Below are positions 17,404 through 49,188 of a stretch of 64,000 nucleotides of DNA, one piece after another (position 1 is the stretch's first letter; each line of letters opens with the position of its first letter). This stretch comes from Lantana camara (taxonomy: Eukaryota; Streptophyta; Magnoliopsida; Lamiales; Verbenaceae), in assembly GCA_037501455.1 (NCBI GenBank), contig CM074865.1, positions 33,462,501 through 33,526,500 on the forward strand. Direction: 5' to 3'. Position numbers and translations under genes: made by a program. The notes under the pieces are model-generated. The model was not told where the DNA came from and did not search any database. It was given only the letters and a program-made list of their open reading frames with translations.

Positions 17404-17445
<42 letters not shown>
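17404..17445. repeat. (TA)n microsatellite
   Basis: About 40 bases of alternating T and A within the element 2 LTR. Confidence 0.95.
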
Positions 17446-17449
<4 letters not shown>

Positions 17450-19349
17450 GACTTATCAAAACAGAACGAACAAAACTTAACTTATATATATATCTCAAAG
17501 CGTACGTTAATTCATGCAGACTCATCAAACATATCAAAGCGTGTTTTATTAGGTTAAAAATACCAAATTTTATCTTAGTTTAAGAATCTACCCCCATTTC
17601 ACGAACTTTTGACAGACAGACAGAACACTCGACAGGTACGAGTTCAAATTCCAACCAACTCCTTAGTTCATATTCATATTCATATTCAAACAGAAGTCAA
17701 AGTCAGACATACCTACCTCTTCTCCGGTGATGGAAGGGTTGACCTACCCTAACCATCAGTTCCAATATTTACGGGTCGTGAGTTTCATGGCACTCACGCC
17801 CGAGGATTCCATTCCCCAACTAACCTACTGGTGGGGTTCAAGTTGATCCATTTAAAGTGGAGACCATATTCAGGAGTAACCCGACGGCCCGATGCCATCC
17901 CGAGACTTCTTTGCACAAATCTCCTGGGCCCATCAAAGTTCAAAGTTCAAAGTATAGATTTTCAGAAGTTCAAAACCCGCTACAGACAGATAGATAGACA
18001 GATATAATTAATGCATATTGTACTTATCATATCGTACGTACATACCACACACACACTGACCTCAAAATCATATCAAAACCGAGTCTAAGCATACATAGGC
18101 TCATACATAGCATTCATACTTTCAAACATATAGCAAAACCATCAACATACATACTTTGCACATATCTACGTATACATAAGGCTTATAGTCACATGCATTC
18201 AAAAATAAGCACATTGAAATAAGATATAACTATATCCTAACCTCACCTAGTACCAAGCAATGCCGAACACGAAGCAAATGGTCCACCCCGGAACCTGCAC
18301 GACTTACTTATCACCACCCCGGGTGCACCGGAATAGCTGAGCACACAAAACACAGGACTCAGACTCAAACAACAACCACAGAGACAACGCTCATGAATAC
18401 ACAAAATGAAATTCATACGATGCACATTCACAAAACAAACAAATTAAATTCACATATCACATTTCATACGAAATGCACGTATTACAAGACCAAATAAATC
18501 ATATAATTGCATGCTACTAATTTCATATCAATCCACGAAGTCACAGGTCAAATTTCAACTAAGTCATTTAACCATACTAAGTTCATATATTGCATAACCA
18601 ATTCATATATTACATAATAGATTTAATTTCAATTTACGCGATTAAACCTTAATTGCAAAGTTTGAAGTTTAGTTATCCAAGGCATAATAATAAATTTTTT
18701 TACGTAGTCAAGATTAGTATAATCGTTTATCCAATAACAAGCAAATTTACATATTTAGGAAAATTACACATACACCCCTTTTCAAGCTAAAGTATTAGCA
18801 TAAATTCAACATGCATATCACATTGCATTCAATATATGAATTCATATACATTGGCATACATATTGATCAACAATTTCAACAATAAACAATTTATTGCATT
18901 TCAAACAATTAATTTCAAATATTCAAATTACACAAAATAATTCACAACAAATCAAATGGACATCCGATTAATGAAGGGAAAGTGGCGTTGAATTCACCAC
19001 GACGAAAGGGACTCGCTGTCCGAAGGGCGTTGGAACGCCGCCGCCGGAACCTATCGGACCGCCACCTGCCGCCACTGGACCACCATCTCCGGTGGTCGAA
19101 AAATTCCCCATGAACAGTGAATCGTACGTCTCAGTATGTTCGACAAAACCTCTCAATCAATTTCTAGAAATATGGAAGCCACCGGATTTAGATAAGGAAA
19201 AACCTATCCGATTCAACAAGTAGATTACGAAAGCCAGAAAATGAAATTAAATCAAAACTGCTTGACGAAAATGAAATCCGAACATACCGCTGGAAAGACC
19301 TCATAGAGTACTTCGAAAGCCCTAACTTAATTGCAGGAGAAAAGTCTGT

Positions 19350-20060
19350 AGAAAGAATGCCGACATTAAGCCACCGCGTGCTGCCACACGCCGCCACCAA
19401 AAGGCCGAATTGTGAGTCGTGCGAACCGAAAAAGGAAGATCTCGTCGTGCTGAAAAACTTTCATGAAGGCCTCATCACCAAAAGATCACCAGAAACGGCC
19501 CCCGATAGCTGTCGAAGTTCTCATAGCCGCTGTTATTGTCGGAACCGCCATCTACGGCCAAAATCAGCTCAATCGGGGTCGAAAAAGCTTGGAAACCCTT
19601 AAACCTTCTCTGAAAAAACCGCCGGAGGCGGCAGAATTATCGCTTGTTACAGTACGGGTACCGTTGCCTCGGAAATTCCAGTGGCATGTGCGCCACCACC
19701 GCGGCTCCATCGGCTGCGTCGCCAATGCAAAAATGTACACCGTCGAGAGACGCTCAAAGCCCAGCCATTCACCTTCCAGTTCTACCACCAAAAACCGCCG
19801 TGCGTCGCCATGAAAGGCCGCGGCCCTTCAAATGGCGCATGCGCCACCACCACCGCAACTGAGGTCATGCCGCCACCTAGAAAAGATGCACCTTTGAGAG
19901 GCACATCCATCCCCACCAGCACCACCGTGAACCGATGTCGGAATCTGCCGTAAAACACCGACCCGCCAGCTGTGTGTGAAAATCAGAGATAACTCTACCA
20001 CCGTTTGTCGTCGGGCCAAGATCTTGGTATGGTTGTGTTCCTCTCGTAGAGCTCTTTGAA
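19350..20060 (-). other. GC-rich module of element 2 LTR
   Basis: A strongly GC-rich, CCGCC/GGCGG-laden stretch inside an otherwise AT-rich LTR. It matches the module at 47900-48700 in a sister LTR. On the minus strand it holds two imperfect copies of a unit around GCATTGGCGACGCAGCCGATG. Several overlapping open frames (up to about 116 codons) arise from base composition and differ between the two LTR copies, so I do not call a gene. It may be sequence captured long ago or a CpG-type promoter region. Confidence 0.5.
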
Positions 20061-20486
20061 ATGCACTACTCATTCATCGAAATCCGTCGAAAAATGGCCG
20101 ACTTCCAATGTGTGCATATTTTAGTGTGTGTTTATGGTGTTTATGTCGTGAGGGGAGAGAGAAGAAGTTGGTTCAAATCTTATTTGTCCAATGGGGATCT
20201 GGTTATTTTATCCGGGGCCCTTGCGCACGAAAACGATATGTAGGAAAGGCTAACGACGTCAGAATTGGGTAAACTTAGAGTCTACGGACTCATTTGGATG
20301 CCCCAAACGCGTTAACGGGGTCCCAGGGGTCAAAATCGAATGAGAAATGACCCAAAAACCCCTAAAAAGAGAAAAGTACAAACAAGCCCCTAAACTCATA
20401 AAGATTTGAAAATAGGACAAAATAACATAATTAAACACACAAGAAAGTGGACAGGTGGCGTAGGTCGTACGCCGGAAGAGTGAGAT

Positions 20487-20491
20487 GTTAC
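20487..20491. other. Target site duplication GTTAC (left)
   Basis: GTTAC here is repeated at 32742-32746, exactly flanking the LARD. The same bases are the last but one part of the outer LTR terminus GTTACA. Confidence 0.9.
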
Positions 20492-22008
20492 TGTAACGCC
20501 CCGGTTTTTCAATTTTATTAATATGTCATATTTGCTTCTAAATTGCGCAATTAAATTATTTAATTATGTGATTAATTGTTTTTATGTGTTTTATATTTAA
20601 TTTTATTATAATTGTTATTATTTTATTTTATTATATTTTATTTTAATTTATTAATAATTCTAATATATATATATATCGTATTATATATATATATATATAC
20701 ATATATATTTCTTTAAGTATATATATGTATACGTTTATTTATATTATTATTAATTTAATGATTATGCTAATTATATGTTATGCTAATTAATCATGTTTAG
20801 TTAATTAATTACGTGACCTAATATAATTTATTTAATATTAGAATTAATTTATTATTTATAATAATTATGCATGGGAAATTATACTTTGCATGGGAATTAT
20901 AATATTCATGCATGGATTTTATTTGAATATGCATGAATTGCATGAATGAGTTTGTTTGTTAATTTTGAGCTTCGTTCTTATATGAAATGATTTCGGATTG
21001 CCACGAATATTTAGTATGTCGTAAATATATGTGTAATGAATATGATTTTATGCTCGATTTATATTTTCGAATTCATTTGATATGTTAACGGATTTAATTT
21101 GTATTGAGGAACTAAATCGGGGGCTAACGAGCACTTGGCGTACCCTTGGTTCCGAATTTAATATCTTGAGCTCGGGAACTCGGATTCGAGTTCCGTCAAC
21201 TCCGCTGAACTCGTAACGAAAATGCGAGTTTAGTAAACTTAGCCTTATATTTTTCCTGAATCATTTGAACCTCCGAAATCCAACCGAAAAACGAAACGGC
21301 ATCCATTTGACCTTGCTGTACAAAATGAGCCATATCTTATCCAAACCATAACCAAATTAACCATGGTTTGATTCTTTAAAACCCTAACTCAACCATCTAT
21401 CATGACATTTCAAGCCTTAACCGAGATAACCCTCACACAATCCCCAAAAACTCAGCCAAAGCTTCTGCAGTCATTCCAGTCCCGTAACCCTTCCATCCTT
21501 GGAGATTTTGGAGCTCAAATCTCATCCAAACTTCAACCAATCAACAAGGTAAGCTTGGGGTTGTATTATATGTTCATTTCTGATCATTTCCACCCTTTCA
21601 TTCATGAAGTTGAGCATGGTTTCATCATTTCTGGGCATTTTTCCGAAAATAAGAAAATTTGGGCAATTTCTTGGTCTCCTTCGATTCTTAATGGTTTTGA
21701 TTGATTCCAAGCTTGAGATTGATTGTTTTGACATCCTAATATCATTTAGGATCATTGATTTCTTGGTGGTTGAGATATTAATGAGTTATCATTTATGAAC
21801 TTTTGAGAAAATTTTCATGAATGTCACGTATGCTTCCATTTCTTGTTTGAGCTTGTTTGGAACTGATATATACGTTGAGATGGTGTTGCTTATATGAGTA
21901 TTTGATGGTCTAAACTGATTTGGATAGGTGGAGTTGAAGTGAATGCTTCGTGTCCTGTTTTTCCGTGACCTTTGCCCTGTTTTTCACCCGTTTTGTTGCT
22001 GTCAATAA

Positions 22009-22256
22009 GCTGCTGCGTTTCCTTCTTTCTTTTGCTGTTAATTTCGTGGCTTTGTGGGATCATTCTAGAGGAGTTCTTGCAGCTTTTCATGCATGATTTT
22101 GTTGCCTTTCTTGCTTGTACATGGCTGTAGTAGCTGCTGCGTTTCCTTCTTTCTTTTGCTGTTAATTTCGTGGCTTTGTGGGATCATTCTAGAGGAGTTC
22201 TTGCAGCTTTTCATGCATGATTTTGTTACCTTTCTTGCTTGTACATGGCTGTAGTT
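22009..22256 (+). repeat. Two 124 bp tandem units in LARD LTR
   Basis: Units start at 22009 and 22133 (GCTGCTGCGTTTCCTTC...) and a third start is cut short at 22257. The same duplication is present at 30033/30157/30281 in the 3' LTR. The solo LTR at 9770-16455 has no comparable duplication in its equivalent region (about 12100-12230), so the duplication arose within this lineage. Confidence 0.85.
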
Positions 22257-22371
22257 GCTGCTGCGTTTTTCTGTCAAAAGCAGGGGATGTGATGGCGTGA
22301 GACACGGGTGTGTTGTTTTTGCTCTTTCCTGTGTGTAACGGGGGTGCTGTGGGGGCTGGAATCGCTGTACC

Positions 22372-22424
22372 GAGACACGGGGGTGTCTCAGTCTAGGCTT
22401 GGGAGGTGACACGGGGGTGTCACC
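22372..22424. repeat. Paired perfect hairpins in LARD LTR
   Basis: GAGACAC/GTGTCTC around GGGG (22372-22389) and GGTGACAC/GTGTCACC around GGGG (22405-22424). Degenerate relatives lie at about 22300 and 22335. The stems differ in their outer pairs (GAG/CTC against GTG/CAC) while staying complementary. The same pair is in the 3' LTR at 30396-30448. Confidence 0.85.
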
Positions 22425-22537
22425 CCGTTTTTCCTGAAACTGTTTTTCCTGCGTCTTCTCTGAACTGCTGCAGCATGTGTATTTATGTGTTGTGTGTGTG
22501 AGATGCTGTAATTGTGTAAAGTGTGTGCATGGGTATG

Positions 22538-22542
22538 CATGG
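22538..22542. other. TRIM target duplication CATGG (left)
   Basis: CATGG is repeated at 23137-23141. The uninterrupted site is visible in the 3' LTR near 30560. Confidence 0.95.
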
Positions 22543-22726
22543 TGTGATACCCCTGTCCCACATCGGGAAAATATGAGAGTTAAGTATAGTTTATAAGTTA
22601 AAGAGTCCAAGTATAACCAATGGATATCCCTTTTGGGCAGTGATTTAGGCCCAATTTCAGGTTATACTCGGTGGGCTTGGAGACTTGCGCTCGCGTCCAA
22701 CGGGCCCGCGGACCTGGGGCGTGACA
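22543..22726 (+). repeat. TRIM 5' LTR, 184 bp
   Basis: TGTGATACCCC...GCGTGACA, apparently identical to 22953-23136. It includes the TGTCCCACATCGG word common in plant TRIM-type LTRs. Confidence 0.95.
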
Positions 22727-22728
22727 GA

Positions 22729-22740
22729 TGGTATCAGAGC
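22729..22740 (+). other. TRIM primer binding site
   Basis: TGGTATCAGAGC, two bases after the LTR, complementary to the 3' end of initiator Met tRNA. Confidence 0.95.
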
Positions 22741-22938
22741 CGCTCGTCAGCCGCAGGAGCTAAGTGCTATACGGGGCAAAGTGCTACGCACATGGGAGCC
22801 ACCTCTTGAGCCTGCGGGGCAAAGTGCTACATGTGTGGGAGCCACCTCTTGAGCCCGTAGGAGCCACCTCTAGAGTCCCAACGCAGACGAGTCGGTCATG
22901 GGCTATATATCATGCCGCGACGAGGACGTCGCGATTCT

Positions 22939-22952
22939 GAAGGAGGGGTGAT
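22939..22952 (+). other. TRIM polypurine tract
   Basis: GAAGGAGGGGTGAT directly before the second LTR. Confidence 0.85.
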
Positions 22953-23136
22953 TGTGATACCCCTGTCCCACATCGGGAAAATATGAGAGTTAAGTATAGT
23001 TTATAAGTTAAAGAGTCCAAGTATAACCAATGGATATCCCTTTTGGGCAGTGATTTAGGCCCAATTTCAGGTTATACTCGGTGGGCTTGGAGACTTGCGC
23101 TCGCGTCCAACGGGCCCGCGGACCTGGGGCGTGACA
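22953..23136 (+). repeat. TRIM 3' LTR, 184 bp
   Basis: Copy of 22543-22726 with no difference seen, followed by CATGG. Confidence 0.95.
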
Positions 23137-23202
23137 CATGGCTTGTATATAATATATATATATATAGATGCTTGTGTGTGTAATTGCATGCAAGAATAAA
23201 AT

Positions 23203-23205
<3 letters not shown>

Positions 23206-23238
<33 letters not shown>
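23206..23238. repeat. (TA)n microsatellite
   Basis: Alternating TA run in the LARD 5' LTR; the 3' LTR has the counterpart at 30632-30662. Confidence 0.9.
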
Positions 23239-23240
<2 letters not shown>

Positions 23241-24214
23241 TGGCTGTTATTTGAGTTGCATGCATGAATATATATAGTATACATATTTGTGTGTGTGTGC
23301 ATGCATGTAGCTACGTGTATATGTATATATGTATATTATATGTTATTATATATTAATATATAATTATTATATTATATATATTTATTATATATTTTAAATA
23401 ACATTTGATTTAATTCAATTTTTGAAATTAATTGATTTCTATTTCGCATATTTAATTTACCGACTATTGATTGAACGTTTTATTTAATTATTTTATTCCT
23501 AATTGTGAATATGAATATTATGTATTATGATTGTTGAATGAAATTTTAGATTAATTGATATGCCTTATGAATTTATGAAATTGATATGAAATATGAATTT
23601 ATGAAATTATGAAATTGAATGAAATATATGAACGAATGATTTGGTTATATGTCTTAAATTCTTTAATATTGCACATGAACATGTTCATTACACTATATTG
23701 TTTCTTATGCACTTATATATCATGTTCATTGCATGCCGCGCATCATAATTGGTTCATTTGGAGTCTCGAGTCTCACGAACACGTCATGTTGTCTTTTGTA
23801 CAGTTTATCTCCAGGGTGGAGAGACCTTGATCGTTCAGGCACTTGGTACTCGTATCCTTGTTTCGTCACGGTTCAGGTGAGGGTGTTTTCGTTTTAGCTA
23901 CGTATTAAACCCTACAACCCTTATGTGAAAAGCTTTGGCCAAAACCTTATGATTATATATATATGGTTTTCAAATGAAGTTATCGAGTAAATTCTTCTGA
24001 AATATTACGTATGACCGTATATAAGCTTAAAAATGGTTTTGTATTGAGGCTATGCTCCAAACCGTGTGTATTCATACTAGCCACGGATTAGGATGACACG
24101 GAGAGGTACGTATATAGCATATGCCGAATTACACGGTAAGGTATGATTCCTTATAGTATGTATCATATGTATGTATTAATATGTTTTGGCGAGATTTCAT
24201 ATATGTTATGTTCA

Positions 24215-24430
24215 CGGGCCCAGGGACTTAGTATATGTGGCTAACCGAGGAAGCAAGGGCTGACGGGGATCCCATATACTAGTCCCAATCAAACTACGGT
24301 GATACCGGCCCTCGCTAGGAGGTTTAGCGGGGAATGGGAGCTGAGTGCCCTTGGGGGATTCATGTACCCCCATTGGCCTATGTATGAACCGGTGGCCGGG
24401 TCTTGCAAGCCCGTCCACCACCCGGAGGAA
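24215..24430 (+). other. GC-rich conserved structured LTR block
   Basis: Holds GGGCTGACGGGGATCCCATA and the inverted repeat CCTCGCTA/TAGCGGGG around GGAGGTT. Matching blocks are at 31655-31865 (3' LTR), 10640-10800 (solo LTR, minus) and, split by an insertion, 44865-44944 plus 61077-61205 in a diverged LTR. Short frames here exist on both strands and are not conserved as protein. The block is better kept than the flanking LTR, which hints at an RNA or DNA role. Confidence 0.6.
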
Positions 24431-24834
24431 GAAGGTTGGTTATGGTTTCTGATTATGCTTATGAATATGTTTATGTTATGGTTATGCACCGTGAGGGAAT
24501 GCCGGGATCCGGATCGCCCAAACGAATATGTTTATGATATGATTTATGGTCCGTGTGTATTATGACGTATTGCATGACCACCTATTTAAAATATTATTGA
24601 TATTTGTCGTACACGGTCGGAGTTTGGTTGGAGATTGTGCACGCTCACTCGCCGAGCCTTATGTTTATGTATGATTTATGAATGTAATGAATTAATATGA
24701 TTAGTCATAAAATCCGAGCATTGATTAATCATTCTCTTGCCCTTTTGGGAACTAATTTCAAGTAAAACCTTGCTCCGGATTTATGACTTGTATGTGCATG
24801 TTTTATATATATATATGTATCGCTCCTGCTCACT

Positions 24835-24851
24835 CAGTCTTCTAGAGACTG
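24835..24851 (+). other. Conserved LTR hairpin CAGTCT/AGACTG
   Basis: CTCACT precedes and GACCCTCTCCCTCCCC follows; the pyrimidine tract runs to TTTAGCGTGCAG|GTTT, which looks like a 3' splice site. Equivalents with altered stems or loops are at 7971, 10224 (minus), 17278 (minus, CAGT/ACTG), 32268, 45970 (minus), 51748 (CAGTC/GACTG) and 52586 (minus, TCAGT/ACTGA). I infer a structured RNA element or a protein-binding palindrome. Confidence 0.75.
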
Positions 24852-25317
24852 ACCCTCTCCCTCCCCAACACTTTAGCGTGCAGGTTTGGCTTTGGAGTTT
24901 CGAGCTAGGCGGAGTTTTGTTGAGTTTGAGTCGGTCAAGTTAAGTTAGAAGCATCTCTGCATTCACCTTATGCATTTAAATTGTGATTGATCCGACCTTG
25001 TAAGATCATGGAATTTGATTCTTGTATAATTGTTATTGAATTGCTTTTGTTGGACTTTGTTTATGAGTTTAAAAGAGGCCTGAAGAGCCCAAGTCTACTT
25101 ATGGTTTGTATGTATGAAATTTTAGTTGTCCCGTGCATTATGTTTCGTTGATTGGTTGTTATTGCAGGGTCTAAGTTCCGCCTAGCTTAGGAGGGTTTTA
25201 TGTTTGTCTCCCGTTCGCTATGGTTTGATACGGGTGCGGATTTACCATTTCGTTACTCGTGTTGAGCCATAGTGCGGGGGATGTGGTGCCTCACGTGCGG
25301 GGTGCTACATCCTTAAG

Positions 25318-25329
25318 TGCTATCAGAGC
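25318..25329 (+). other. LARD primer binding site
   Basis: TGCTATCAGAGC lies eight bases after the LTR end. It matches the Met-tRNA site TGGTATCAGAGC at 11 of 12 bases. Confidence 0.8.
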
Positions 25330-28296
25330 CCGGCTGCAAAACCGGTGTTCTTGAGTCGTGTTGGAGTCAGTCTAAGTCGAACGGCATAGGGACTATGTGA
25401 TATTGTGTGCATTGCATCGATCTTGAATATGGAATTTGGTTTCCTTAAGAATTTTGTTGAATTACTTGTTGCATTTTATATGGATTCTTGTCTTTCGTAT
25501 TGAATATGTGCCATGAGCATGCACTAATCGCATGCATCCATTCTTGAAATGAGTTATGATTTCCAGGTTATAAAGATGATATCAAACCACGACCAAGTTC
25601 TATGATCACAACAATCTATTACAATTCCTTCGGAGGCACGGAAGATAGGAAGGATGCCCGGGGAGGAATGTGCAGAATGCTAGTTGTGTGGCTCTGTAGA
25701 CTGAGTTGCAATTAACGGTTGGGATTCAGAATGGGAGGTTCGACCTTGGCGATGCGATGGCAGAGGAACATTTGGGGGAATAGGAATAGGAATTAATCAA
25801 GGGATGGTTGTGACTCAGAAGAACAACTTATTGGAATCCACTACTTGAAGTGCATTAATTGGATTCAACAGGATCTTTCAACCTAAGGAATGAAGGGAAC
25901 AAAACCTTGAAGATATATTGGTCCCGGATTTGGATCATGGAAGAGGTACTAATAATTAAGAAGAGTAGAGATAACAGGGGTCCGGTAGAGGTTATGCATC
26001 AACGGTCTACAAAGAAGGACTTCGAACTAAGCCTAGTGATTAGAAGTCGGGTTCTAGAAGGCAAGCATTTGGGTAAACACAAATAGAGGGAAGGTGGCGA
26101 TATGGAGAACAGGATTTGAGTTCACTTTTCCAAATCCAAGCTGAATTGTCATGTTGTGAGGTTAAATTGGAAGATATGGAGCAACAAATGGAAACGGGAA
26201 AGAAAGGAAATCATGCGCTCAAGTATAAGCAACTGGAGGTGAATTAAATTCACAAAGGATAAGCGCGGAATTCTTGATCGAGGTGACGATTAGAAGTAAA
26301 GGTCGAATTTCGAGGAGAAGTTTGGATACTAACTCTGTGGACGTGGAAGAATTAAGGATTAAGAAATTGCAATCTCGGATAGTGGAAGATACAAGTGATG
26401 CAAAAAGACTCATGGAAAACTTGAAGACCGTGGGAAAGGCAAGGGATAACCACCAAGTCAAAGTAACCTCGGGATTGGAGGAACGAGGAAAAGCTACCGA
26501 GCTAACTACTTACCACCTTGGTGACAGGTCCCAAAACATTCATAGCATGTGCATCATATTTTGCATTAATTGTTTATTCTTTTAACCTTATGTTTATCCG
26601 TGCATTTCTAATTGGTTTCGTTGCGCTAATGTGTTGTATAATTGCTCGATGTAAACGTGACACATGCATTGTCATTTTAACCCAACATGCATTTTAGTGT
26701 TTACTTGATAGGAAGTCCTTTCGCCTCAACTATCAAGTATCAGTTCAACCGAGCCGCATATGAGTTATGAGGAAGAGAAATAATAGGATGACGTTAGAAG
26801 GAAGGTGAATTTGGGAAATAAGAACTTCCATTAAGGGATAGGTTAACGGAAACAAGAATTCAGAAGGAGAAGTGAGACTAGAGTTCCGGACAAGATTAAG
26901 AAAGGAGTTTCGGACATCAAGAGAACTAGGGAAGGAGTTGAAAGGCCAAATCTTTGATTTCTATATCAGTTAAACTCCACCTAATGGGATTTACTCATCA
27001 AGAGTTTCGATAAAAGAAGAATCGATGGAGTTCAACCCGGGACAACAGAAATTTAAGGGGGAGAGCACGACCGAGGAACAAATTGGACGATTGAAAGGGT
27101 GCTCGAAGAAATATTTCAGTAAGAATAACGAAATTGCAAATTAAGGAAGACCTGGGAGTCCTATTAGTGATGATCAGAAATAAACAAGACGGCTTGAATG
27201 GTTAAGTTGTTAAGAGGAGAGTTAAGTTACTCAATTCGGGTTGGAGTCCCTTATTAGGTATAACGGAAATGGCTTGGAGAATATTCCTATGTATAGAACA
27301 TGGATCTGGGGATAACAGAATTATAAGGGAGCTTCTGGAAACTCCTAAGTTAGAATTGACAAAAGAGAGAGTGTCGAATCAAGTTGGCATATGATGGAAT
27401 GATGGCGATCATGAGTAATCCAATAGGGTACAAAAGGGGTTTCAATAATGACAATATTATCAAGTCTCCGGTTAGTCCCACGATACTTCGGAAGGAAATC
27501 TAAGAAGGAACCAAACCTGAAAAGATGATCATTGGAGGATTTGCATCAAACTTCAAAACGCATCAAGAACATTTTATCTTCGATTCAAGAAATGTGGAGC
27601 TAGATGCCAAATATAACCTTAAGGGGTCAAAGGGAATGAATGGATACCATGAACGGAAGATGGAAAAGGATTCGTGTTAAGGTAGATCCTAATGACGAAT
27701 ACCTCTAGGTAGGGATTGAATCGTCATGGTTGTCAGGGGTAGTTATTCTCGAGGGTATTTTAAACTCCGATATGGATAAGATAGTAGCTAGGGACCTAAC
27801 TTCGAGACGGATGGTCTAAGGGTATTCGGGAGGTCAAGCTCGGATAAGTAAAAAGAGTTGGCTGAATGAGGATTAAGAGGAATGATGGAGACTGGGAGCA
27901 GTACCAGGCAGAAGGGATCTAAGAAGTATAATCCCTGAAGGATTCATTAATTGTTTCATCGGGGTATCCTGAAGAGGTTAAAGACAAACTGAGCACTGAA
28001 TCTATCTTCGGGACAGATGATACACTGAACAACGACAACTCACAAATTTAAAACTTCATGACTACGGTGAACGGTATTTATAGCATTCATGAAGCATACA
28101 TTCATGCAAATTCAATTTAATAATTTCTTTGTTATGTGCTTTGTTTTCTTATCAAGTTAAATTACGTGAAGTAATTGATGATTAACGTGGATGATATCTG
28201 ATATTTACCTTGAGGTGGCTTGTGTGATTTTGAATTTGGTTTTACGTGTTCTGCTTGGGAGTATTGGAGACTTCCTTGCTTTATTTATTTTTGTTT

Positions 28297-28457
28297 GAGA
28301 GACGGGGTGCTCTCGTTGTTTCTAAGAGACGGGGCTTCTCTTATTTTTGTTTGAGAGACGGGGTACTCTCTTTGCTTGCGAGAGACGGGGTTCTCTCATT
28401 GTTTCTCGAGAGACGGGGCTCTCTCCTTGTTGCTTGTGAGAGACGGGGAATCTCTCA
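28297..28457 (+). repeat. LARD hairpin array, six units of about 28 bp
   Basis: Six inverted repeats: 28297-28314, 28323-28343, 28353-28370, 28380-28397, 28408-28425 and 28437-28457. Loops are CGGGGT, CGGGGCT, CGGGGAA and similar. Stems are GAGAG/CTCTC, TAAGAGA/TCTCTTA, GAGAGA/TCTCTC and TGAGAGA/TCTCTCA, so outer bases change in pairs. The array ends about 45 bases before the polypurine tract. A longer, more variable relative sits in element 2 at 33101-33508. One frame reads through it (28246-28461), but frame and residues are set by the repeat. Confidence 0.85.
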
Positions 28458-28500
28458 TTAGTGGTTTTAAGCGTGCAGTGAATCCGAGGACGGATTCTTT

Positions 28501-28515
28501 TTAAGGGGGAGAGAT
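28501..28515 (+). other. LARD polypurine tract
   Basis: TTAAGGGGGAGAGAT directly before the LTR start TGTAACG at 28516. Confidence 0.85.
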
Positions 28516-30032
28516 TGTAACGCCCCGGTTTTTCAATTTTATTAATATGTCATATTTGCTTCTAAATTGCGCAATTAAATTATTTAATTATGTGATTAAT
28601 TGTTTTTATGTGTTTTATATTTAATTTTATTATAATTGTTATTATTTTATTTTATTATATTTTATTTTAATTTATTAATAATTCTAATATATATATATAT
28701 CGTATTATATATATATATATATACATATATATTTCTTTAAGTATATATATGTATACGTTTATTTATATTATTATTAATTTAATGATTATGCTAATTATAT
28801 GTTATGCTAATTAATCATGTTTAGTTAATTAATTACGTGACCTAATATAATTTATTTAATATTAGAATTAATTTATTATTTATAATAATTATGCATGGGA
28901 AATTATACTTTGCATGGGAATTATAATATTCATGCATGGATTTTATTTGAATATGCATGAATTGCATGAATGAGTTTGTTTGTTAATTTTGAGCTTCGTT
29001 CTTATATGAAATGATTTCGGATTGCCACGAATATTTAGTATGTCGTAAATATATGTGTAATGAATATGATTTTATGCTCGATTTATATTTTCGAATTCAT
29101 TTGATATGTTAACGGATTTAATTTGTATTGAGGAACTAAATCGGGGGCTAACGAGCACTTGGCGTACCCTTGGTTCCGAATTTAATATCTTGAGCTCGGG
29201 AACTCGGATTCGAGTTCCGTCAACTCCGCTGAACTCGTAACGAAAATGCGAGTTTAGTAAACTTAGCCTTATATTTTTCCTGAATCATTTGAACCTCCGA
29301 AATCCAACCGAAAAACGAAACGGCATCCATTTGACCTTGCTGTACAAAATGAGCCATATCTTATCCAAACCATAACCAAATTAACCATGGTTTGATTCTT
29401 TAAAACCCTAACTCAACCATCTATCATGACATTTCAAGCCTTAACCGAGATAACCCTCACACAATCCCCAAAAACTCAGCCAAAGCTTCTGCAGTCATTC
29501 CAGTCCCGTAACCCTTCCATCCTTGGAGATTTTGGAGCTCAAATCTCATCCAAACTTCAACCAATCAACAAGGTAAGCTTAGGGTTGTATTATATGTTCA
29601 TTTCTGATCATTTCCACCCTTTCATTCATGAAGTTGAGCATGGTTTCATCATTTCTGGGCATTTTTCCGAAAATAAGAAAATTTGGGCAATTTCTTGGTC
29701 TCCTTCGATTCTTAATGGTTTTGATTGATTCCAAGCTTGAGATTGATTGTTTTGACATCCTAATATCATTTATGATCATTGATTTCTTGGTGGTTGAGAT
29801 ATTAATGAGTTATCATTTATGAACTTTTAGGAAAACTTTCATGAATGTCACGTATGCTTCCATTTCTTGTTTGAGCTTGTTTGGAACTGATATATACGTT
29901 GAGATGGTGTTGCTTATATGAGTATTTGATGGTCTAAACTGATTTGGATAGGTGGAGTTGAAGTGAATGCTTCGTGTCCTGTTTTTCCGTGACCTTTGCC
30001 CTGTTTTTCACCCGTTTTGTTGCTGTCAATAA

Positions 30033-30280
30033 GCTGCTGCGTTTCCTTCTTTCTTTTGCTGTTAATTTCGTGGCTTTGTGGGATCATTCTAGAGGAGTTC
30101 TTGCAGCTTTTCATGCATGATTTTGTTGCCTTTCTTGATTGTACATGGCTGTAGTAGCTGCTGCGTTTCCTTCTTTCTTTTGCTGTTAATTTCGTGGCTT
30201 TGTGGGATCATTCTAGAGGAGTTCTTGCAGCTTTTCATGCATGATTTTGTTACCTTTCTTGCTTGTACATGGCTGTAGTT
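30033..30280 (+). repeat. 124 bp tandem units in 3' LTR
   Basis: Units start at 30033 and 30157 with a truncated third at 30281, as in the 5' LTR. Confidence 0.85.
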
Positions 30281-30395
30281 GCTGCTGCGTTTTTCTGTCA
30301 AAAGCAGGGGATGTGATGGCGTGAGACACGGGTGTGTTGTTTTTGCTCTTTCCTGTGTGTAACGGGGGTGCTGTGGGGGCTGGAATCGCTGTACC

Positions 30396-30448
30396 GAGAC
30401 ACGGGGGTGTCTCAGTCTAGGCTTGGGAGGTGACACGGGGGTGTCACC
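30396..30448. repeat. Paired hairpins in 3' LTR
   Basis: GAGACAC/GTGTCTC at 30396-30413 and GGTGACAC/GTGTCACC at 30429-30448, unchanged from the 5' LTR. Confidence 0.85.
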
Positions 30449-30627
30449 CCGTTTTTCCTGAAACTGTTTTTCCTGCGTCTTCTCTGAACTGCTGCAGCAT
30501 GTGTATTTATGTGTTGTGTGTGTAAGTTGCTGTAATTGTGTAAAGTGTGTGCATGGGTATGCATGGCTTGTATATAATATATATATATATAGATGCTTGT
30601 GTGTGTAATTGCATGCAAGAATAAAAT

Positions 30628-30631
<4 letters not shown>

Positions 30632-30662
<31 letters not shown>
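30632..30662. repeat. (TA)n microsatellite
   Basis: Alternating TA run in the 3' LTR. Confidence 0.9.
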
Positions 30663-30665
<3 letters not shown>

Positions 30666-32267
30666 TGGCTGTTATTTGAGTTGCATGCATGAATATATAT
30701 AGTATACATATTTGTGTGTGTGTGTGTGCATGCATGTAGCTACGTGTATATGTATATATGTATATTATATGTTATTATATATTATTATATAATTATTATA
30801 TTATATATATTTATTATATATTTTAAATAATATTTGATTTAATTCAATTTTTGAAATTAATTGATTTCTATTTCGCATATTTAATTTACCGACTATTGAT
30901 TGAACGTTTTATTTAATTATTTTATTACTAATTGTGAATATGAATATTATGTATTATGATTATTGAATGAAATTTTAGATTAATTGATATGCCTTATGAA
31001 TTTATGAATTTATGAAATTTATATGAAATATAAATTTATGAAATTATGAAATTGAATGAAATATATGAACGAATGATTTGGTTATATGTCTTAAATTCTT
31101 TAATATTGCACATGAACATGTTCATTACACTATATTGTTTCTTATGCACTTATATATCATGTTCATTGCATGTCGTGCGTCATAATTGGTTCATTTGGAG
31201 TCTCGAGTCTCACGAACACGTCATGTTGTCTTTTGTACAGTTTATCTCCAGGGTGGAGAGACCTTGATCGTTCAGGCACTTGGTACTCGTATCCTTGTTT
31301 CGTCACGGTTCAGGTGAGGGTGTTTTCGTGTTAGCTACGTATTAAACCTTACAACCCTTATGTGAAAAGCTTTGGCCAAAACCTTATGATTATATATATA
31401 TGGTTTTCAAATGAAGTTATCGAGTAAATTCTTCTGAAATATTACGTACGAGCGTATATAAGCCTAAAAATGGTTTTGTATTGAGGCTATGCTCCAAACC
31501 GTGTGTATTCATGCTAGCTACGGATTAGGATGACACAGAGAGGTACGTATATAGCATATGCCGAATTACACGGTAAGGTATGATTCCTTATAGTATGTAT
31601 CATATATGTATTAATATGTTTTGGCGAGATTTCATATATGTTATGTTCACGGGCCCAGGGACTTAGTATATGTGGCTAACTGAGGAAGCAAGGGCTGACG
31701 GGGATCCCATATACTAGTCCCAACCAAACTACGGTGATACCGGCCCTCGCTAGGAGGTTTAGCGGGGAATGGGAGCTGAGTGCCCTTGGGGGATTCATGT
31801 ACCCCCATTGGCCTATGTATGAGCCGGTGGCCGGGTCTTGCAAGCCCGTCCACCACCCGGAGGAAGAAGGTTGGTTATGATTTCTGATTATGCTTATGAA
31901 TATGTTTATGTTATGGTTATGCACCATGAGGGAATGCCGGGATCCGGATCGCCCAAACGAATATGTTTATGATATGATTTATGGTCTGTGTGTATTATGA
32001 CGTATTGCATGACCACCTATTTAAAATATTATTGATATTTGTCGTACACGGTCGGAGTTTGGTTGGAGATTGTGCACGCTCACTCGCCGAGCCTTATGTT
32101 TATGTATGATTTATGAATGTAATGAATTAATATGATTAGTCATAAAATCCGAGCATTGATTAATCATTCTCTTGCCCTTTTGGGAACTAATTTCAAATAA
32201 AACCTTGCTCGGGATTTATGACTTGCATGTGCATGTTTTATATATATATGTATCGCTCCTGCTCACT

Positions 32268-32284
32268 CAGTCTTCTAGAGACTG
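32268..32284 (+). other. Conserved LTR hairpin CAGTCT/AGACTG (3' LTR)
   Basis: Same as 24835-24851. Confidence 0.75.
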
Positions 32285-32741
32285 ACCCTCTCCCTCCCCA
32301 ACACTTTAGTGTGCAGGTTTGGCTTTGGAGTTTCGAGCTAGGCAAAGTTTTGTTGAGTTTGAGTCGGTCAAGTTAAGTTAGAAGCGTCTCTGCATTCACC
32401 TTATGCATTTAAATTGTGATTGATCCGACCTTGTAAGATCATGGAATTTGATTCTTGTATAATTGGTTTTGAATTGCTTTTGTTGGACTTTGTTTATGAG
32501 TTTAAAAGAGGCCTGAAGAGCCCAAGTCTACTTATGGTTTGTATGTATGAAATTTTAGTTGTCCGGTGCATTATGTTTCGTTGATTGGTTGTTATTGCAG
32601 GGTCTAAGTTCCGCCTAGCTTAGGAGGGTTTATGTTTGTCTCCCGTTCGCTATGGTTTGATACGGGTGCGGATTTACCATTTCGTTACTCGTGTTGAGCC
32701 ATAGTGCGGGGGATGTGGTGCCTCACGTGCGGGGTGCTACA

Positions 32742-33830
32742 GTTACAAACTCCCTATCTTAAAGGATCTGGTCCCTAGATCCTATTGCTGAGTCAAAGAG
32801 CTTTGAATCGTAGTACCTCAATCCATCTCCCGGAATCGTGTAGAGTCATAGTCCTGGTTGTGAAGTTTACTCCCCTTGTTTGCATCAACTCCCTTCATGG
32901 TGTCCTGTTATCCCTGAGGTCTTTCTGAATACTTGACCATTGGTCGCTTCAAACTCGTTCGATCACTACTAGGATACGGATGACTGTCACTGCACCCAAA
33001 GCTCGATATCATTACATACTACTTGATTGCAAACCGTCTTCAGGCCACACGTAACGAAACTATGACAAACAAGACAGAATCCCTTCTCTCAACACGTAAA
33101 TGAGAGAACACCATCCCTCGGCACACACAAAAGAGAGAACCCTATCTCTCAGACACATAATTAAGAGAAGCCTGTCTCTTAAACACAGATTTGAGAGAAC
33201 CCTGTCTCTCAACCTAAGTCCGACAGATTCTAACATCTCCCAGACATTCTAGTTTGAGAAAATCCTGCATTTCTCAAACCCCTCAATTCAAGAAAATCCG
33301 ACATCCCTTGAATAGCTAAGTACAAGAGAATCCAACATCTCTCGTGTATAAAACTTAGAAAGAATCCAACATCTTTCTATCACATAATTAGAGAGAATCT
33401 TACATCCCTCTAACACACAAATAGGGAGAATCAACATCTCCCTAGCACGTAAACAGAGAGAATTAAATCTCCCTCTCACTTAGAATAGAGAGACTCTAAC
33501 ATCTCTCTGGCACATAAGTATAAGTAATTAAGCACCCATACATACATACAATAACACAATTAGCAATTACAACAATCAACGCATGTCACAGTTGACAAGT
33601 ATATCGCTTAATAACAAGAATTAATCAAATAAAGGATGCATGTATGCTCGTGCCATGAATGCTTAGTGTACCGTTTACCGTGGTATTGGAAATCTTGACC
33701 ATAAAGTTGAGATGATATCATGGAAGCAGATTAACTGTTGATGACGCAACCCTGTAGTTCAAACACTAAAATTGGTGCATGCGGGTTAGGGATGCAAATG
33801 AAATGTAACACTTAAATCACATAAGTAGTA
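32742..33830 (-). mobile_element. Element 2: LTR last bases and internal 3' tail
   Basis: GTTACA at 32742-32747 completes the LTR broken by the LARD. From 32748 the minus strand reads back through a purine-rich tract (TAAGATAGGGAGTT), non-coding sequence, the hairpin array 33101-33508 and a stretch matching the LARD internal 3' domain. At about 33830 it is abruptly joined to copia A integrase sequence with no LTR end on either side, which looks like a deletion or recombination breakpoint. No coding motif was seen. Confidence 0.75.
33101..33508 (-). repeat. Element 2 hairpin array, about 12 covarying units
   Basis: Perfect or near-perfect inverted repeats about 28-40 bases apart. Stems (+ strand): GAGAGA/TCTCTC at 33133, TTAAGAGA/TCTCTTAA at 33161, TTGAGAGA/TCTCTCAA at 33191, GTTTGAGAAA/TTTCTCAAAC at 33252, ATTCAAG/CTTGAAT at 33286, TACAAGAGA with one mismatch at 33321, TAGAAAGA/TCTTTCTA at 33356, TTAGAGAGA with one mismatch at 33388, TAGGGAGA/TCTCCCTA at 33422 and AGAGAGA/TCTCTCT at 33487. 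Most loops are 6-8 bases, ACCCTG or ATCCAACA type. On the element's sense strand the first units read CAGGGT, close to the CGGGGT loops of the LARD array. Confidence 0.88.
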
Positions 33831-34661
33831 TCATATGGATTCCTGAGGATAGCCAACAAAGTAGCATAAGTTAAAACGTGCTTCTAACTTATCTCCCACT
33901 GTCCTCTTCACATAAGCAGGACAATCCCAAATTCTCAAGTAAGAATAACTAGGGATTTTACCATGCCACATTTCATAGGGCATTTTAGGGACTGATTTAG
34001 AAGGAACAAGATTCAAAATCTTGGCTGCACTTTCTAGAGCATAACCCCAGAAAGAATGTGGTAAGTTAGTGAAACTCATCATGGAACAAACCATATCAAG
34101 TAGGGTTCAATTTCTTCTCTCAGAAACTCCATTAAGTCGAGGAGTTCCCGGAGGAGTCCATTGAGAGATAATACCATTATCTCTGAGATGAATAAAGAAT
34201 TCTTCACTAAGATACTCGCCACCTCGATCAGATCAAAGTGTCTTAATCTTATGACCGGTTTGGATCTCAACCTCCTTTTCAAATTCTAAGAATTTCTCAA
34301 AAGCCTCAAATTTGTACTTCATTAAGTACATATAACCATAACGATTAAAGTTGTTAGTAAAGGTTATGAAGTACTGATGATTGTTTCGAGTGCTTACACT
34401 AAGCGGTCCACAAACATCAAAATGCATCAAATCCAAGGTCTTAGTGGCTCGTTCCACACTCCCTGTGAAAGGAGTTTTGGACATCTTTCCTTTGAGACAG
34501 GATTCATAAGAACTTAACTCTTTAAGGTCACTTTCAGAGACTGTCCCTAAGGTGGTTAACTTATTAATTCTGCTTTTGGAAATATGTCTTAATCTAGCGT
34601 GCCATAAAGATGCTGAGACTTCCTTATCTCTCTTCCATTTTGTTTCTCGTTTTATATTCAA
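33831..34661 (-). pseudogene. copia A integrase, interrupted
   Basis: The zinc-binding region begins LWHARLRHISKSR and is followed by SCLKGKMSKTPF. The core shows LDLMHFDVCGPL (first Asp), SDRGGEYL (second Asp) after a stop at about 34234, and the NGVSERRN region (Glu) before another stop near 34108. The product would insert element cDNA into the chromosome. The frame changes between 34233 and 34282, and stops break it, so no full integrase is made. A closer-to-intact homologue lies at 62672-63365. The 3' side ends at the breakpoint with element 2. Confidence 0.85.
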
Positions 34662-44984: not shown

Positions 44985-45969
44985 TCGGGAGCGTTTCTTT
45001 AGGGTTATGTATTTTATTTATTTGATTCTGTAATTTAATTGTTCGTTCATATGCCCTTTGTGCCTAATTTGAACTACGTGTCCTTGTTTGTTACATTTAG
45101 AAACTATAGAATTTAATTGAAATAGTAAAGGTTGGGCCTAATTGAATATATTGGAAACTATGTGGGTTAAATTGAATGAAATAGAAATATAGGGACTTGT
45201 TTGCAAATTAGTCATACGAGCACTCATTTGTATTTTCGAGCCTCGTAACCTTGTTTCTTATATTTTTACAAACCCGTTACCTACCTTTTCATTCAATTCT
45301 TAGCACGTCGCTTTTGAAAACAGTATTTTAAATTAACCCTAAACCAGACCAATTTATCCAGAAATAACACAAACTAACTAAAGCCATAAAATATCTTCTT
45401 GGTGGGACCCATGTAACACCCCGCACGGTGGGTCACAACATCCTTCGCACCAAAGCCCGATCCACATACGAGATGGAAGGCCCGTACATGAACCAAACAG
45501 TGGCGAACGGGAGAGAGATAAACTCATACCTAAGCTAGGCGGGACGTAGACCCTAAACATCAGAATCAACTCATAGAATAAATGCAGAAGCAGAAGCATT
45601 CAAATCAAATTAAATCTTGCAAGAACAGTTGACGGGTTCAACTAGCATAAATACCTAATCTCGAAATCAACCAGAAATAATAAATCAATGGGTTCAATCT
45701 ATCCCTAGAAGCCTCTCCCGAAATAATCACAGTGATACGGATTCATCTAATCCAAGAACCTGTCCTAAACTATCCCGAAATTCATACATTGAAAGCATAA
45801 TTATAAACCTGTACAGAATATATCGTATATATAATTTCAAACATAGTTCGGAATAAAATACTTAACAAATTCAAACTGACAGACACAGACTCGACAGACA
45901 GGACACATAGACGCCTAGCTCGAACTCGAACAACCTGAACCTGCAACTAAAACATAAAGAGGGAGGGGT

Positions 45970-45983
45970 CAGTCTAAAGACTG
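45970..45983 (-). other. Conserved LTR hairpin CAGTCT/AGACTG
   Basis: Six-base arms around AA. The sister LTR at 17278-17291 has only CAGT/ACTG. Confidence 0.7.
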
Positions 45984-47899
45984 AGTGAGGGGATACCCAC
46001 ACACACTTACATATAAATAGAGCACAACACGTTCAAAATTAAATGTTCGTGAATCCGGGATTAGTTTTTGCATGCCAAAACATTTGCCCGTGATATTATA
46101 TATATCGGGTGGCTTATCAAAACAGATAAACAAAACTTAATTTATACATTTATCAAAGCGTACGTTCAAATTCATGCAGACTTAGCACACATATCAAAGC
46201 ATATTTTATTAGGTTAAAAGTATACCAAATTTTGTCTAAATTTAAGAATCTACCCCCGTTTCACAAACTTATGACAGACAGACAGACAGAACACTCGACG
46301 GGCATGAGTTTAAATTCCAACCTCCTTCATATCATATTCAAATACATACTCGAATTGAAAAGAAGTCTAAATGAAACGTACCTCCTGCTCCGGGTGATGG
46401 AAGGGTTGTACATACCCTAGCCATCCAAATATTTATGTATGGGTCGTGAGTTTCATGACACTCACGATCGAGGATTCCCTTCCCCAACCAACCTCCTGGT
46501 GGGGTCCGGGTTGATCCTTTCAAAGTGGAGACTGTACTAGGGAGTAACCCGACGGCCCAATTCCGTCCCAGGGCTCCTTTGCACCAATCTCAGGGGCCCA
46601 GTAAAGTGCAAAGTTCAAAGTTCAAAGTTTCAGATCCCGCTACAGATAGACAGACGTAACTCATGCATATCATTCTTATCATATCGTACGTACATGCCAC
46701 ACACACACTGACCTTAAAATCATATCAAAACCGAGACTAAGCATACATAGGCTCATACATAGCGTTTATACTTTCAGACATATAGCAAAACCATCAAGGT
46801 ACATACGTCGCACATATTTACGTATACATAAGGCTTATAAATCGCATACATTCGAAAACGGGTACGTTGCAATAGGTATAACTATATCCTAACCTCACCT
46901 GGTACCAAACAAAGCCGAACACGAAGCAAATGGTCCACCCCGGAAACTGAATGACTCACTTGTCATCACCCGGGTGTACCTGTACCAACTGAGCACACAA
47001 AACACAACACAGGGCTCAGACTCAGACTCAGACAACCAGACGGAGACGCACGATAATGCTCATGATTGCACAAAACGAAATTCATATGATGGACATTCAC
47101 AAAACAAACAAATTAAATGCGTGTATCACATAACGGATTCAAATCAATTTAGGTAGTTAGACTTTAATTGTAAAGTTTTATTTACTTATCCAAGGCATAA
47201 TAATTCATTTTTACATTGTCAAGATTAGCATATTTATTTATCAAATGACAAAGTTTAATTAATTCAAATCATACAAATTTACATATTTAGAAAATTACAA
47301 ATATACCCCTTTAAGCTAAACAATTAGCACAAATTCAACATATCGGGGTTCAATTTGCAAATTACAACGTCCATACATATCACATTTCATACATTACACG
47401 ATTTCATATACATTGGAATTCATATTGATTGACAATTACAACAATAAATAATTTATTGCATTTAAAACAATTAGATTCAAATATTCAAATTACACAAAAT
47501 GATTCAAACAAATCAACCAGACATTCGATTGATGAACGAAAAGTGGCGTTGGACTCGCCACGATGAAAGGGACTCGCTGTCCAAAGGGCGTCGGAACGCC
47601 ACCGCCAGAACCTGCCGGACCGCCACATGTGTCCGGTGGTTAGAAAGTTCCCCGTGAATGGTGAATCGTACGTCTCAGCATGCTCGATAAAAGCCCTTAA
47701 TCAAAATTTGGAAATACGGAATCTACCGGATTTAAATAAGAAAAAACTGATTCAAATTAATAATTAAATCGTGAAAGCTGGGAAATGAAATTAAATCCAA
47801 ACCGCTTGATGAAAATGAACTCCGAGCATACCGTTGGAAGGGTCTCGTCGATTACTTCGAAAGCCCTAACTCAATTATCGAAAAAAGTCATCGGAAAGA

Positions 47900-48700
47900 T
47901 GGCTGCCATTGGCCATTGAGCCGCTATATGCCACCACCAAACGGCCGAATTTTGAGTTGGGTGAACAAACAAAGATAGATCTCATCGTGCTGAACAACTT
48001 TCATGAAGGGTCCGTTGCCAAAAGATCATCGGAAACAGCCCCCGATATCCGTCGAAGATCCCGTAGCTGCTATTATCATCGGAACCACCACTTACGGCCA
48101 AAATCTGCTCAAATCGAGGCCGGAAAACGAACTCAGTGGGTCAAAAAACCTTGGTATCGTTGGAACCACCACTTACGGCCAAAATCTGCTCAAACTGAGG
48201 CCGGAAAACGAACTCAGGGGGTCGAAAAACCTTGGAAATCGTTAAACATTGTCGGAAAAAGCCACCGGAGTCGCCGCCTCCTACAATACACGTGCCGCCA
48301 CCATGAAACTTCCAACGGCATGTGCGCGGCCACTGCGGCTCCATCGACTGCGCCGCCAACACGGAAATGAATGCCGTCCTCTCCCACACAAAGCCCGGTC
48401 ATCCGCTGCCCGGTTCCGCCACCGTAAACCACCACGAGACGATCTGGCGGTGCGTGTGACACCACCGCGGCCCCGATGGCCGCGCCGCCAATGCGAAAAT
48501 TAACATTGGGGTGTTGCATTCTAGACCCCGGTGGTTGTGTCCCAAAACGGCCACCAAACACCGCCGTGAGAAGCCGGTGAAGTCGCGGTGGTTTGACCCC
48601 CCTTCTGCTGTGACTGAAAATTGGGGAAACACTCTGCCACTACTTGTCATCAGGCTAAGATCTTGGTATGGTTGTTTCGTGTCGTCGAGCTCTTCGAAAA
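47900..48700 (-). other. GC-rich module in LTR with duplicated unit
   Basis: Counterpart of 19350-20060. On the minus strand the unit TTCGCATTGGCGGCGCGGCC (about 48498) recurs as TTCCGTGTTGGCGGCGCAGT (about 48370), each followed by a CACATGCC/CACGCACC element. Frames of 80-153 codons are open on both strands but are not conserved with the sister LTR and contain no domain I know. Confidence 0.5.
48081..48242 (+). repeat. 81 bp tandem duplication
   Basis: Unit 48081-48161 (GGAACCACCACTTACGGCC...) is repeated at 48162-48242 with a few differences. The sister LTR near 19540 has a single diverged unit (GGAACCGCCATCTACGGCC), so the duplication is specific to this copy. 81 is divisible by three, which extends an open frame across it. 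Confidence 0.9.
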
Positions 48701-49112
48701 GCACTACTCATTCATCGAAATCCGTCGAGTATCGGCCAAGTTCCAATGTGTGCATGTGTTTAGTGTGTGTTTCTGTCTAGATCGTGAGAGAGCACGTACG
48801 AGAGAGAGAGCTAAAGTCTGGGTCGCTAAACAAGGATCCGGTTATTTATCCTTGGTCCTCAACACGCGAGAACAACCGGGAGGAAGGGTTAACGACATCA
48901 AAATTGGACAAACTTACAGTCTATGGACTCATTTCAAAGCCCCAAATGCGAAAAAAAAAGGGGTCCAAGAGGTCGGAACCTTGATCAAACGAGAAATGAA
49001 CGAAAAACCGCTAAAAAGAGAAAATTGCAAACAAGCCCCTAAACTCTTAAAGAGTTGCAAATAGGGCCACGCAAAGCACAAAATCACAGAATTAAACACA
49101 TAAGAAAGTCGA

Positions 49113-49118
49113 CACGTG
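49113..49118 (-). promoter_or_regulatory. G-box CACGTG near LTR start
   Basis: GACACGTGGC, 36-41 bases inside the LTR on the minus strand; the sister LTR has CAGGTG here. Role inferred. Confidence 0.35.
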
Positions 49119-49188
49119 GCGTAGCTCGTACGTCGGAAGAGCGGGATGTTACAACCCACATCTCTCTCTCCCTTATACCAATCGGTAT

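Follow-up and report, generated by a model that had tools for sequence, protein, structure and literature searches.

A tandem array of small hairpins, probably maintained as RNA, in a non-coding LTR retrotransposon of Lantana camara

The window analysed here is a 64,000-nucleotide stretch of the Lantana camara genome (assembly GCA_037501455.1, contig CM074865.1, positions 33,462,501 to 33,526,500), and it carries, within a broken long terminal repeat (LTR) retrotransposon, a tandem array of 14 small hairpins. Overall, we believe with good confidence that the array has been kept by selection at the level of RNA, and our best reading is that it belongs to a Ty3/gypsy lineage as a cis-acting 3' RNA domain, which that lineage's non-coding derivatives have retained. 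To the explanation as a whole, in which the selected RNA array is predicted to act as a multivalent 3' recognition domain bound by the Gag protein of a helper element for packaging, we give slightly less than an even chance. An original prediction made from the letters of the window alone had pointed to this region, and its interpretation as a whole is partly supported by the analysis presented here.

Anatomy of the array

The sense strand of the array is the window's minus strand, on which its units are arranged as follows.

33072 to 33508, minus strand: hairpin array of 14 units, from H1 (33487 to 33508) to H14 (33072 to 33091), with a unit length of about 30 bases
33218 to 33508, minus strand: units H1 to H9, with arms of 7 to 10 bp that differ in sequence; the loop is TTTAAT in H2 and of the TGYTGGAT type in H1 and H3 to H9
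33072 to 33212, minus strand: units H10 to H14, of the GAGAGA-YGGGGT-TCTCTC type

Read on the sense strand, the loops are TGYTGGAT and its variants in H1 and H3 to H9, TTTAAT in H2, and YGGGGT and its variants in H10 to H14, and a GAGA/TCTC core is common to the units. All 14 can be drawn by hand once G-U pairs and mismatches are allowed. The array of about a dozen hairpins first proposed is thus real, and the six arm pairs quoted for it are all present in the sequence; of its proposed extent, 33101 to 33508, the upper end is correct and the lower end is not, since the array runs 29 bases further down. The description of the arms as fully complementary suits the quoted pairs and fails for two units among the genomic copies described below: H9 is fully paired in none of 40 (31 have G.G at one pair), and H14 in 1 of 39.

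The hairpins clearly exceed chance. Counting as perfect any non-overlapping hairpin with Watson-Crick (WC) arms of at least 6 and a loop of 4 to 10, the 461 bases from 33060 to 33520 hold 8. In 500 shuffles that preserved dinucleotides the mean was 0.75 and the highest count 4, so that perfect hairpins are enriched about tenfold over shuffled sequence. Elsewhere in the window, 135 blocks of the same length contain 1.4 on average and 5 at most. Of the two pieces of the internal domain that flank the array, one holds none and the other a single hairpin, at the very end, so that by this count hairpins in what survives of the internal domain are confined to the array and to one place just ahead of the polypurine tract (the pre-PPT hairpin).

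A microRNA precursor was considered as an identity for the array and rejected. Rfam covariance models gave 8 matches at E of 1 or less across 27500 to 34500, none of them over this array or the related one described below (seven fall in an AT repeat at 30581 to 30784 and one at 29695 to 29760), and stems of 6 to 10 bp are too short for Dicer.

The element carrying the array

A search of the genome (1.27 Gb, 378 contigs) found the array at 40 or more places including the window, the other copies being 85 to 90% identical to the window's; 40 copies were scored among 3971 first-look candidates, and the copy number is a lower bound. The part common to the 20 long stretches fetched corresponds to about 32742 to 33826 of the window. 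Three of these copies (L012, L025 and L027) have both LTRs, and in them this shared part makes up most of an internal domain of about 1.25 kb between LTRs of about 3.7 kb, with the array stopping some 320 to 350 bases short of the 3' LTR. They have the hallmarks of an LTR retrotransposon: ends TGTAAC..TACA, 5-bp target duplications (ACCCC, CATCT and CTAAG), a sequence resembling a primer-binding site, TGGTATCAGAGC, after the 5' LTR, and a polypurine tract (PPT) before the 3' LTR. We take TGGTATCAGAGC to be the complement of the initiator tRNA-Met. In these three copies the internal domain has no long reading frame, the longest stop-free stretches, for which no Pfam search was made, being 86 (L012), 71 (L025) and 144 amino acids (L027, antisense).

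The element is a non-autonomous LTR retrotransposon, and its long LTRs and non-coding internal domain fit a large retrotransposon derivative (LARD); the copies with both LTRs thereby bear out the original placement of the array near the 3' end of a non-coding, LARD-like internal domain. The LTR pairs of array-bearing copies differ by Kimura two-parameter (K2P) distances of 0.062 to 0.097, and the insertions are therefore old. The original 2004 paper on LARDs, of which the Sukkula elements of barley and its relatives are the typical group, reportedly described long LTRs with gypsy-like ends, and the LARD internal domain is about 3.5 kb. The present element shares the long LTRs and gypsy-like ends with those elements, but its internal domain is shorter and carries small hairpins in tandem, mostly with one of two loop types. 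LARDs are stated to have well-conserved RNA secondary structures (PMC7215508).

The copy in the window is broken: a nested plus-strand element has inserted six bases inside its 3' LTR, leaving the following pieces.

32742 to 33826, minus strand: surviving internal domain and the first six LTR bases, ending near 33826, where a minus-strand Ty1/copia element starts
32748 to 32758, minus strand: polypurine-tract-like GATAGGGAGTT, adjoining the start of the 3' LTR (TGTAAC, 32742 to 32747)
16723 to 20491, minus strand: 3' LTR of the array-bearing element, cut off from the array by the nested plus-strand element

A solo LTR related to the array-bearing family lies elsewhere in the window (45412 to 49153, minus strand), flanked by the 5-bp duplication TGGGT. 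In one 10-kb stretch, L028, a second partial copy of the array (2032 to 2553) lies about 2.6 kb from the first.

Arms pair within their own units

One account of such an array is a neutral tandem repeat, in which a duplicated palindromic unit rich in GA and TC decays and the remaining pairing is a residue of its founder. Plant LTR elements carry variable tandem repeats ahead of the 3' LTR, the units here have their GAGA/TCTC core in common, and none of the 99 structure pairs is individually significant for covariation, all of which would suit this account. It is disfavoured by swapping arms between units. With the 14 units of the window compared over ten positions, own arms form 102 WC pairs against a mean of 84.8 for swapped arms, a value reached in none of 20,000 permutations; with G-U pairs included the figures are 118 and 107.7 (reached in 25 of 20,000), and at the outer positions 5 to 10 only, 52 WC pairs compare with 38.3 (4 of 20,000). 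Among the other copies, 38 of 39 pass at the 5% level when WC and G-U pairs are counted at the outer positions with H1 and H14 dropped. Since an arm finds a better partner inside its unit than in the other units, the array is not the decay of one palindrome; the original prediction had argued likewise. Pair preservation is, moreover, unequal between the internal and terminal branches of a tree of the copies. Together, these results leave the neutral repeat very unlikely.

The tree rests on about 1.1 kb of the 40 copies, including some unalignable ends; it was midpoint-rooted, with states assigned by parsimony, and terminal branches account for most of its length (4.20 of 5.05). When H1 and H14 are left out, changes kept canonical pairs in 52 cases and broke them in 21 on internal branches, against 115 and 131 on terminal branches (Fisher's exact test, 2.8e-4). 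In the alignment as a whole, 3985 of 4281 non-gap pair cells are canonical (3589 WC and 396 G-U, with 80 A-C and 216 other), and 3717 of 3960 cells compare with 3568 under a tree-based null (standard deviation 34, maximum 3642, 60 simulations). A simple column shuffle differs little from what is observed (3534 WC cells expected, 3589 found), since the copies resemble one another closely. On internal branches the slowest sites are the inner four stem pairs, at 0.21 changes per site, against 0.34 in spacers, 0.57 in loops and 0.60 in the outer stem. Six double-change variants occur at WC-majority pairs of H1 to H13, each at a single pair; other copies show a G-U intermediate for four of these, an A-C intermediate for one and neither for one.

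The pairing is probably kept on one strand

At a WC pair, a sense-strand A>G or C>T change leaves G-U, and G>A or T>C leaves A-C. Changes on internal branches have been transmitted, while those on terminal branches mostly arose after insertion. Single transitions at WC pairs gave G-U and A-C in the ratio 27:5 on internal branches and 81:54 on terminal ones, and the same tendency appears by frequency, with 23 G-U and 7 A-C variants in three or more copies against 24 and 23 in one or two copies. At the six inner positions of the 14 units, the column-majority state is WC in 76 cases, G-U in 7, A-C in none and other in 1. Part of this asymmetry is a general excess of C>T: at unpaired sites, internal branches carry 24 C>T against 8 G>A, though G is the commoner letter. 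The comparison of A>G with T>C is for this reason the only clean part of the strand test, and it stands at 18:2 in stems on internal branches, against equal rates per base at unpaired sites (7 changes for 1036 A and 18 for 2959 T letters). The original prediction had allowed for RNA or cruciform DNA; since G-U outnumbers A-C on the sense strand, we favour RNA. The units resemble the tandem repeats in the hypervariable 3' region of plant LTR elements in being tandem and in preceding the 3' LTR, but may differ from them in forming hairpins that pair unit by unit and in showing a bias towards one RNA strand.

At unpaired sites of the array alignment, 126 G>A changes fall on terminal branches; they are perhaps CpG decay in CGGGG loops, as expected if the old copies are methylated. 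A direct comparison of folding energies was discarded as evidence on the strand: the sense fold is the stabler in all 40 copies, yet the z-scores against shuffled controls are similar on both strands.

Selection is not the only process that could keep hairpins paired. Template switching, during DNA replication or reverse transcription, could copy arm onto arm with no selection or function, and PMC8794818 reports mutation patterns of this kind that can give rise to hairpins and preserve them, paired changes in the stem included. The element does pass through reverse transcription, and whole units come and go: H1 is present in 7 of 40 copies, and L035 has an extra 30-base unit. Template switching would be expected to restore WC pairs, yet the old changes favour G-U over A-C, and on one strand only; the double changes affect single pairs rather than blocks, most of them with a G-U intermediate in other copies; and the inverted form of a unit's own commonest loop is found in none of 487 + 40 loops. 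We therefore regard mutational upkeep as unlikely, if somewhat less so than neutral decay.

Several results weigh against a selected array of separate RNA hairpins. The original prediction had looked to covariation over a phylogenetic null, and here it is not upheld: besides the absence of individually significant structure pairs, none of the 25 highest-scoring covarying column pairs lies in the structure, and the summed score of 17.4 is within the null (mean -1.4, standard deviation 23.4, maximum 70.5). The test is weak, because the copies are so similar to the window's. The loops, said at the outset to be conserved, are no more conserved across copies than the spacers and, at the rates given above, change more than the inner stem. 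One copy, L037, failed the unit-swap test. All copies were selected by having the array, so that the results apply to array-bearing copies rather than to retention across the whole family. Nor do the C>T excess noted above and the folding of the window array, which is far more stable than that of shuffles on either strand (z of -7.1 sense and -7.9 antisense), help the choice of strand. Folding programs, finally, draw only part of the array as proposed. The minimum-energy sense fold of the window array keeps H3 to H10 separate and merges H1 with H2, and H11 to H14, into longer helices; the consensus fold of the 40 copies has H3, H5 to H9, H12 and H13 separate, with H10 paired to H11 and H2 to H4. 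In each run about 8 of the 14 units appear as separate hairpins. Because the program folds merge several units, 14 separate hairpins is a hand drawing.

A different register, in which each 3' arm pairs with the next unit's 5' arm, gives by column majority best helices of 3 to 5 bp at 10 of 13 junctions and of 8, 7 and 7 bp at three junctions in H10 to H14. The register used here gives 2 to 10 bp counted from the loop, a count not made in the same way as that for the alternative. In H10 to H14, where the units are most alike, the alternative register is possible.

A related array in a nested element

The plus-strand element that interrupts the 3' LTR is itself LARD-like and has an array of the same kind at the corresponding place.

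20492 to 32741, plus strand: nested LARD-like element, with LTRs at 20492 to 25309 and 28516 to 32741 and the 5-bp duplication GTTAC
28297 to 28458, plus strand: related six-unit array of the GAGAGA-CGGGGT-TCTCTC type, about 57 bases before the element's 3' LTR

Its LTRs are 0.97% different (41 of 4214), and it is younger than the array-bearing element it interrupts. Four of its six units have perfect arms of at least 6, against a mean of 0.14 and a maximum of 2 in 500 shuffles, and the other two have 5-bp arms with a mismatch. The two arrays match at 75 to 81% in short stretches. Of 1753 candidate genomic copies of the nested array, 40 were scored, all of them 98 to 100% identical, and L023 carries a relative with about four to five such hairpins.

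A possible role at the 3' end

Two smaller structures bear on what the array might do.

33422 to 33444, minus strand: H3, a candidate kissing loop, with a loop hexamer that is self-complementary in 35 of 40 copies when G-U is allowed
32763 to 32783, minus strand: pre-PPT hairpin AGGATCT-AGGGACC-AGATCCT, whose arms have changed in a compensatory way among related copies
28480 to 28497, plus strand: pre-PPT hairpin of the nested element, GAATCCG-AGGA-CGGATTC

The pre-PPT hairpin usually ends 3 to 5 bases ahead of the polypurine tract, a near-fixed distance in 27 rows of aligned copies. Its loops are mostly GGGAC or AGGA, and its arms occur as GGATCTG/CAGATCC, GGACCTG/CAGGTCC and GAACCTG/CAGGTTC, with GAATCCG/CGGATTC in the nested family. 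Pair 4 is TA in 15 rows and CG in 12; pair 2 is GC in 21, AT in 3, GT in 2 and AC in 1; and pair 6 is TA in 23, CG in 2 and other in 2. Own arms are canonical in 182 of 189 cells. Exchanging arms among rows gives 171.6, and the observed count was reached in 0 of 10,000 trials; loop length was set for each row for best pairing. The rows represent 33 of 42 stretches, entered as 27. They omit L015, L017, L018, L029, L034, L040 and L042 (score below 50; L017 and L018 seem to carry a deletion in the hairpin), as well as L016 and L028 (score above 50, with the PPT or 5' arm lost), and include L021, added by hand with a score of 37. This is the clearest compensatory change in our data, and complete between families, though few events may underlie it, the rows being related and their number not a count of events. 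We predict that the pre-PPT hairpin likely helps to define the plus-strand primer.

The H3 loop hexamers are GTTGAT, GTTAAC, GTCGAC, GTTGAC and the like, self-pairing by WC pairs only in 7 copies, while in the other 13 units a self-complementary hexamer is found in 5 of 487 loops. We treat the kissing loop as a lead, because the copies are related and the feature was noticed post hoc.

One copy may link the array to a coding ancestor. In L021, a broken gag remnant (Retrotrans_gag, 22.7 bits) lies between the primer site and the array, followed in another frame by a stretch bearing cysteines and histidines, and we infer from it that a gag-bearing lineage of gypsy type carried the array in the past or carries it still. 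To be set against this, the match is below the Pfam cut-off of 24.1 bits, and an intact helper bearing the array was not among the copies examined.

A general scheme can be suggested. A Ty3/gypsy ancestor with gag and pol would have borne the array, and its non-coding derivatives would have retained it through dependence on that helper, whose proteins must recognise the RNA of a non-coding element for it to move. The G-bearing loops (TGYTGGAT and YGGGGT) on their short stems could serve as protein contacts, repetition of the unit could provide avidity, and the self-complementary loop of H3 could initiate dimerisation, with the pre-PPT hairpin defining the primer alongside the packaging role of the array. 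A multivalent site for Gag nucleocapsid would be expected to look much like this, a series of small stem-loops with G in their loops, joined by linkers rich in G and U. We favour packaging because a gene-less element needs recognition by a helper and because the array resembles such a site, and even so the assignment of a Gag or packaging role is tentative and less likely than not. The fullest version, in which the tandem array is the lineage's packaging handle, with many stem-loops binding Gag and one loop pairing two RNAs, and together with the pre-PPT hairpin lets gene-less elements compete for the particles of a helper, is more doubtful still.

A selected RNA structure might instead serve the ancestral gag-pol RNA, in its stability, nuclear export or translation, or protect or prime the nearby PPT, a set of roles that is possible without being probable. 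The array's place in the 3' non-coding part agrees with such roles, as does the near-fixed position of the pre-PPT hairpin. Sireviruses, too, have an inverted repeat around the junction of PPT and 3' LTR that is proposed to aid primer formation (PMC2829016). Yet one hairpin would be enough to define the PPT, and a row of 14 units placed some 300 bases upstream points to a role of its own; stability or translation, for their part, account less well for the array's retention by non-coding derivatives.

The packaging reading can also be placed beside known systems. Sireviruses, whose non-coding motifs include multiple PPTs and palindromic LTR repeats, resemble the present element in that conserved non-coding signals recur ahead of the 3' LTR and a hairpin lies at the PPT (PMC2829016). 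They differ in being Ty1/copia elements, in an inverted repeat that includes the PPT (the hairpin here ends before it), and in CGG-CCG repeats that lie mostly in the LTR, unlike the array here. The packaging and dimerisation domain of yeast Ty1 has two kissing hairpins, which are required for helper-driven movement of a mini-element and were tested by compensatory mutation (PMC5454406). Ty1 offers a likeness as a structured RNA, but its signals are 5' and the array here is 3', where only the loop of H3 is self-complementary in most copies. As the original prediction had supposed, the literature searched, with subscription papers mostly outside it, yielded no description of tandem hairpins compensated unit by unit.

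A repeated, compact RNA domain common to two non-coding families and a gag-bearing relative is a concrete candidate for the signal by which plant helpers recognise gene-less LTR elements, and if the array is indeed a packaging handle, arrays of different families should keep their loops and their pairing while stem sequences drift. Contrasting recent, mostly neutral changes with old, filtered ones among copies may also offer a general way to find the strand of a transposon RNA structure.

Other elements of the window

Within the 5' LTR of the nested element lies a small element (22543 to 23136) with CATGG on its flanks, direct repeats of about 185 bp that are 99.5% identical, a purine tract ahead of the second of these and, at 22729, the primer site TGGTATCAGAGC; it looks like a terminal-repeat retrotransposon in miniature (TRIM). 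At 52990 to 58847, on the plus strand, Pfam matches identify a gypsy-type element with gag, protease, reverse transcriptase, RNase H and a chromodomain, its LTRs about 545 bp long and 92% identical; the hairpin scan of the window listed no hairpin array in it. A different hairpin or palindrome array, with units like TGGGAACGGCCGTTCCCA, occurs in the window at 59642 to 59842 (three units by the scan, about six by eye), in L020 at 3046 to 3239, in L021 at 8188 to 8308 and in L022 at 546 to 624. It perhaps sits inside the LTR of another element, and it is reminiscent of the palindromic CGG-CCG repeats reported from the LTRs of Sireviruses.
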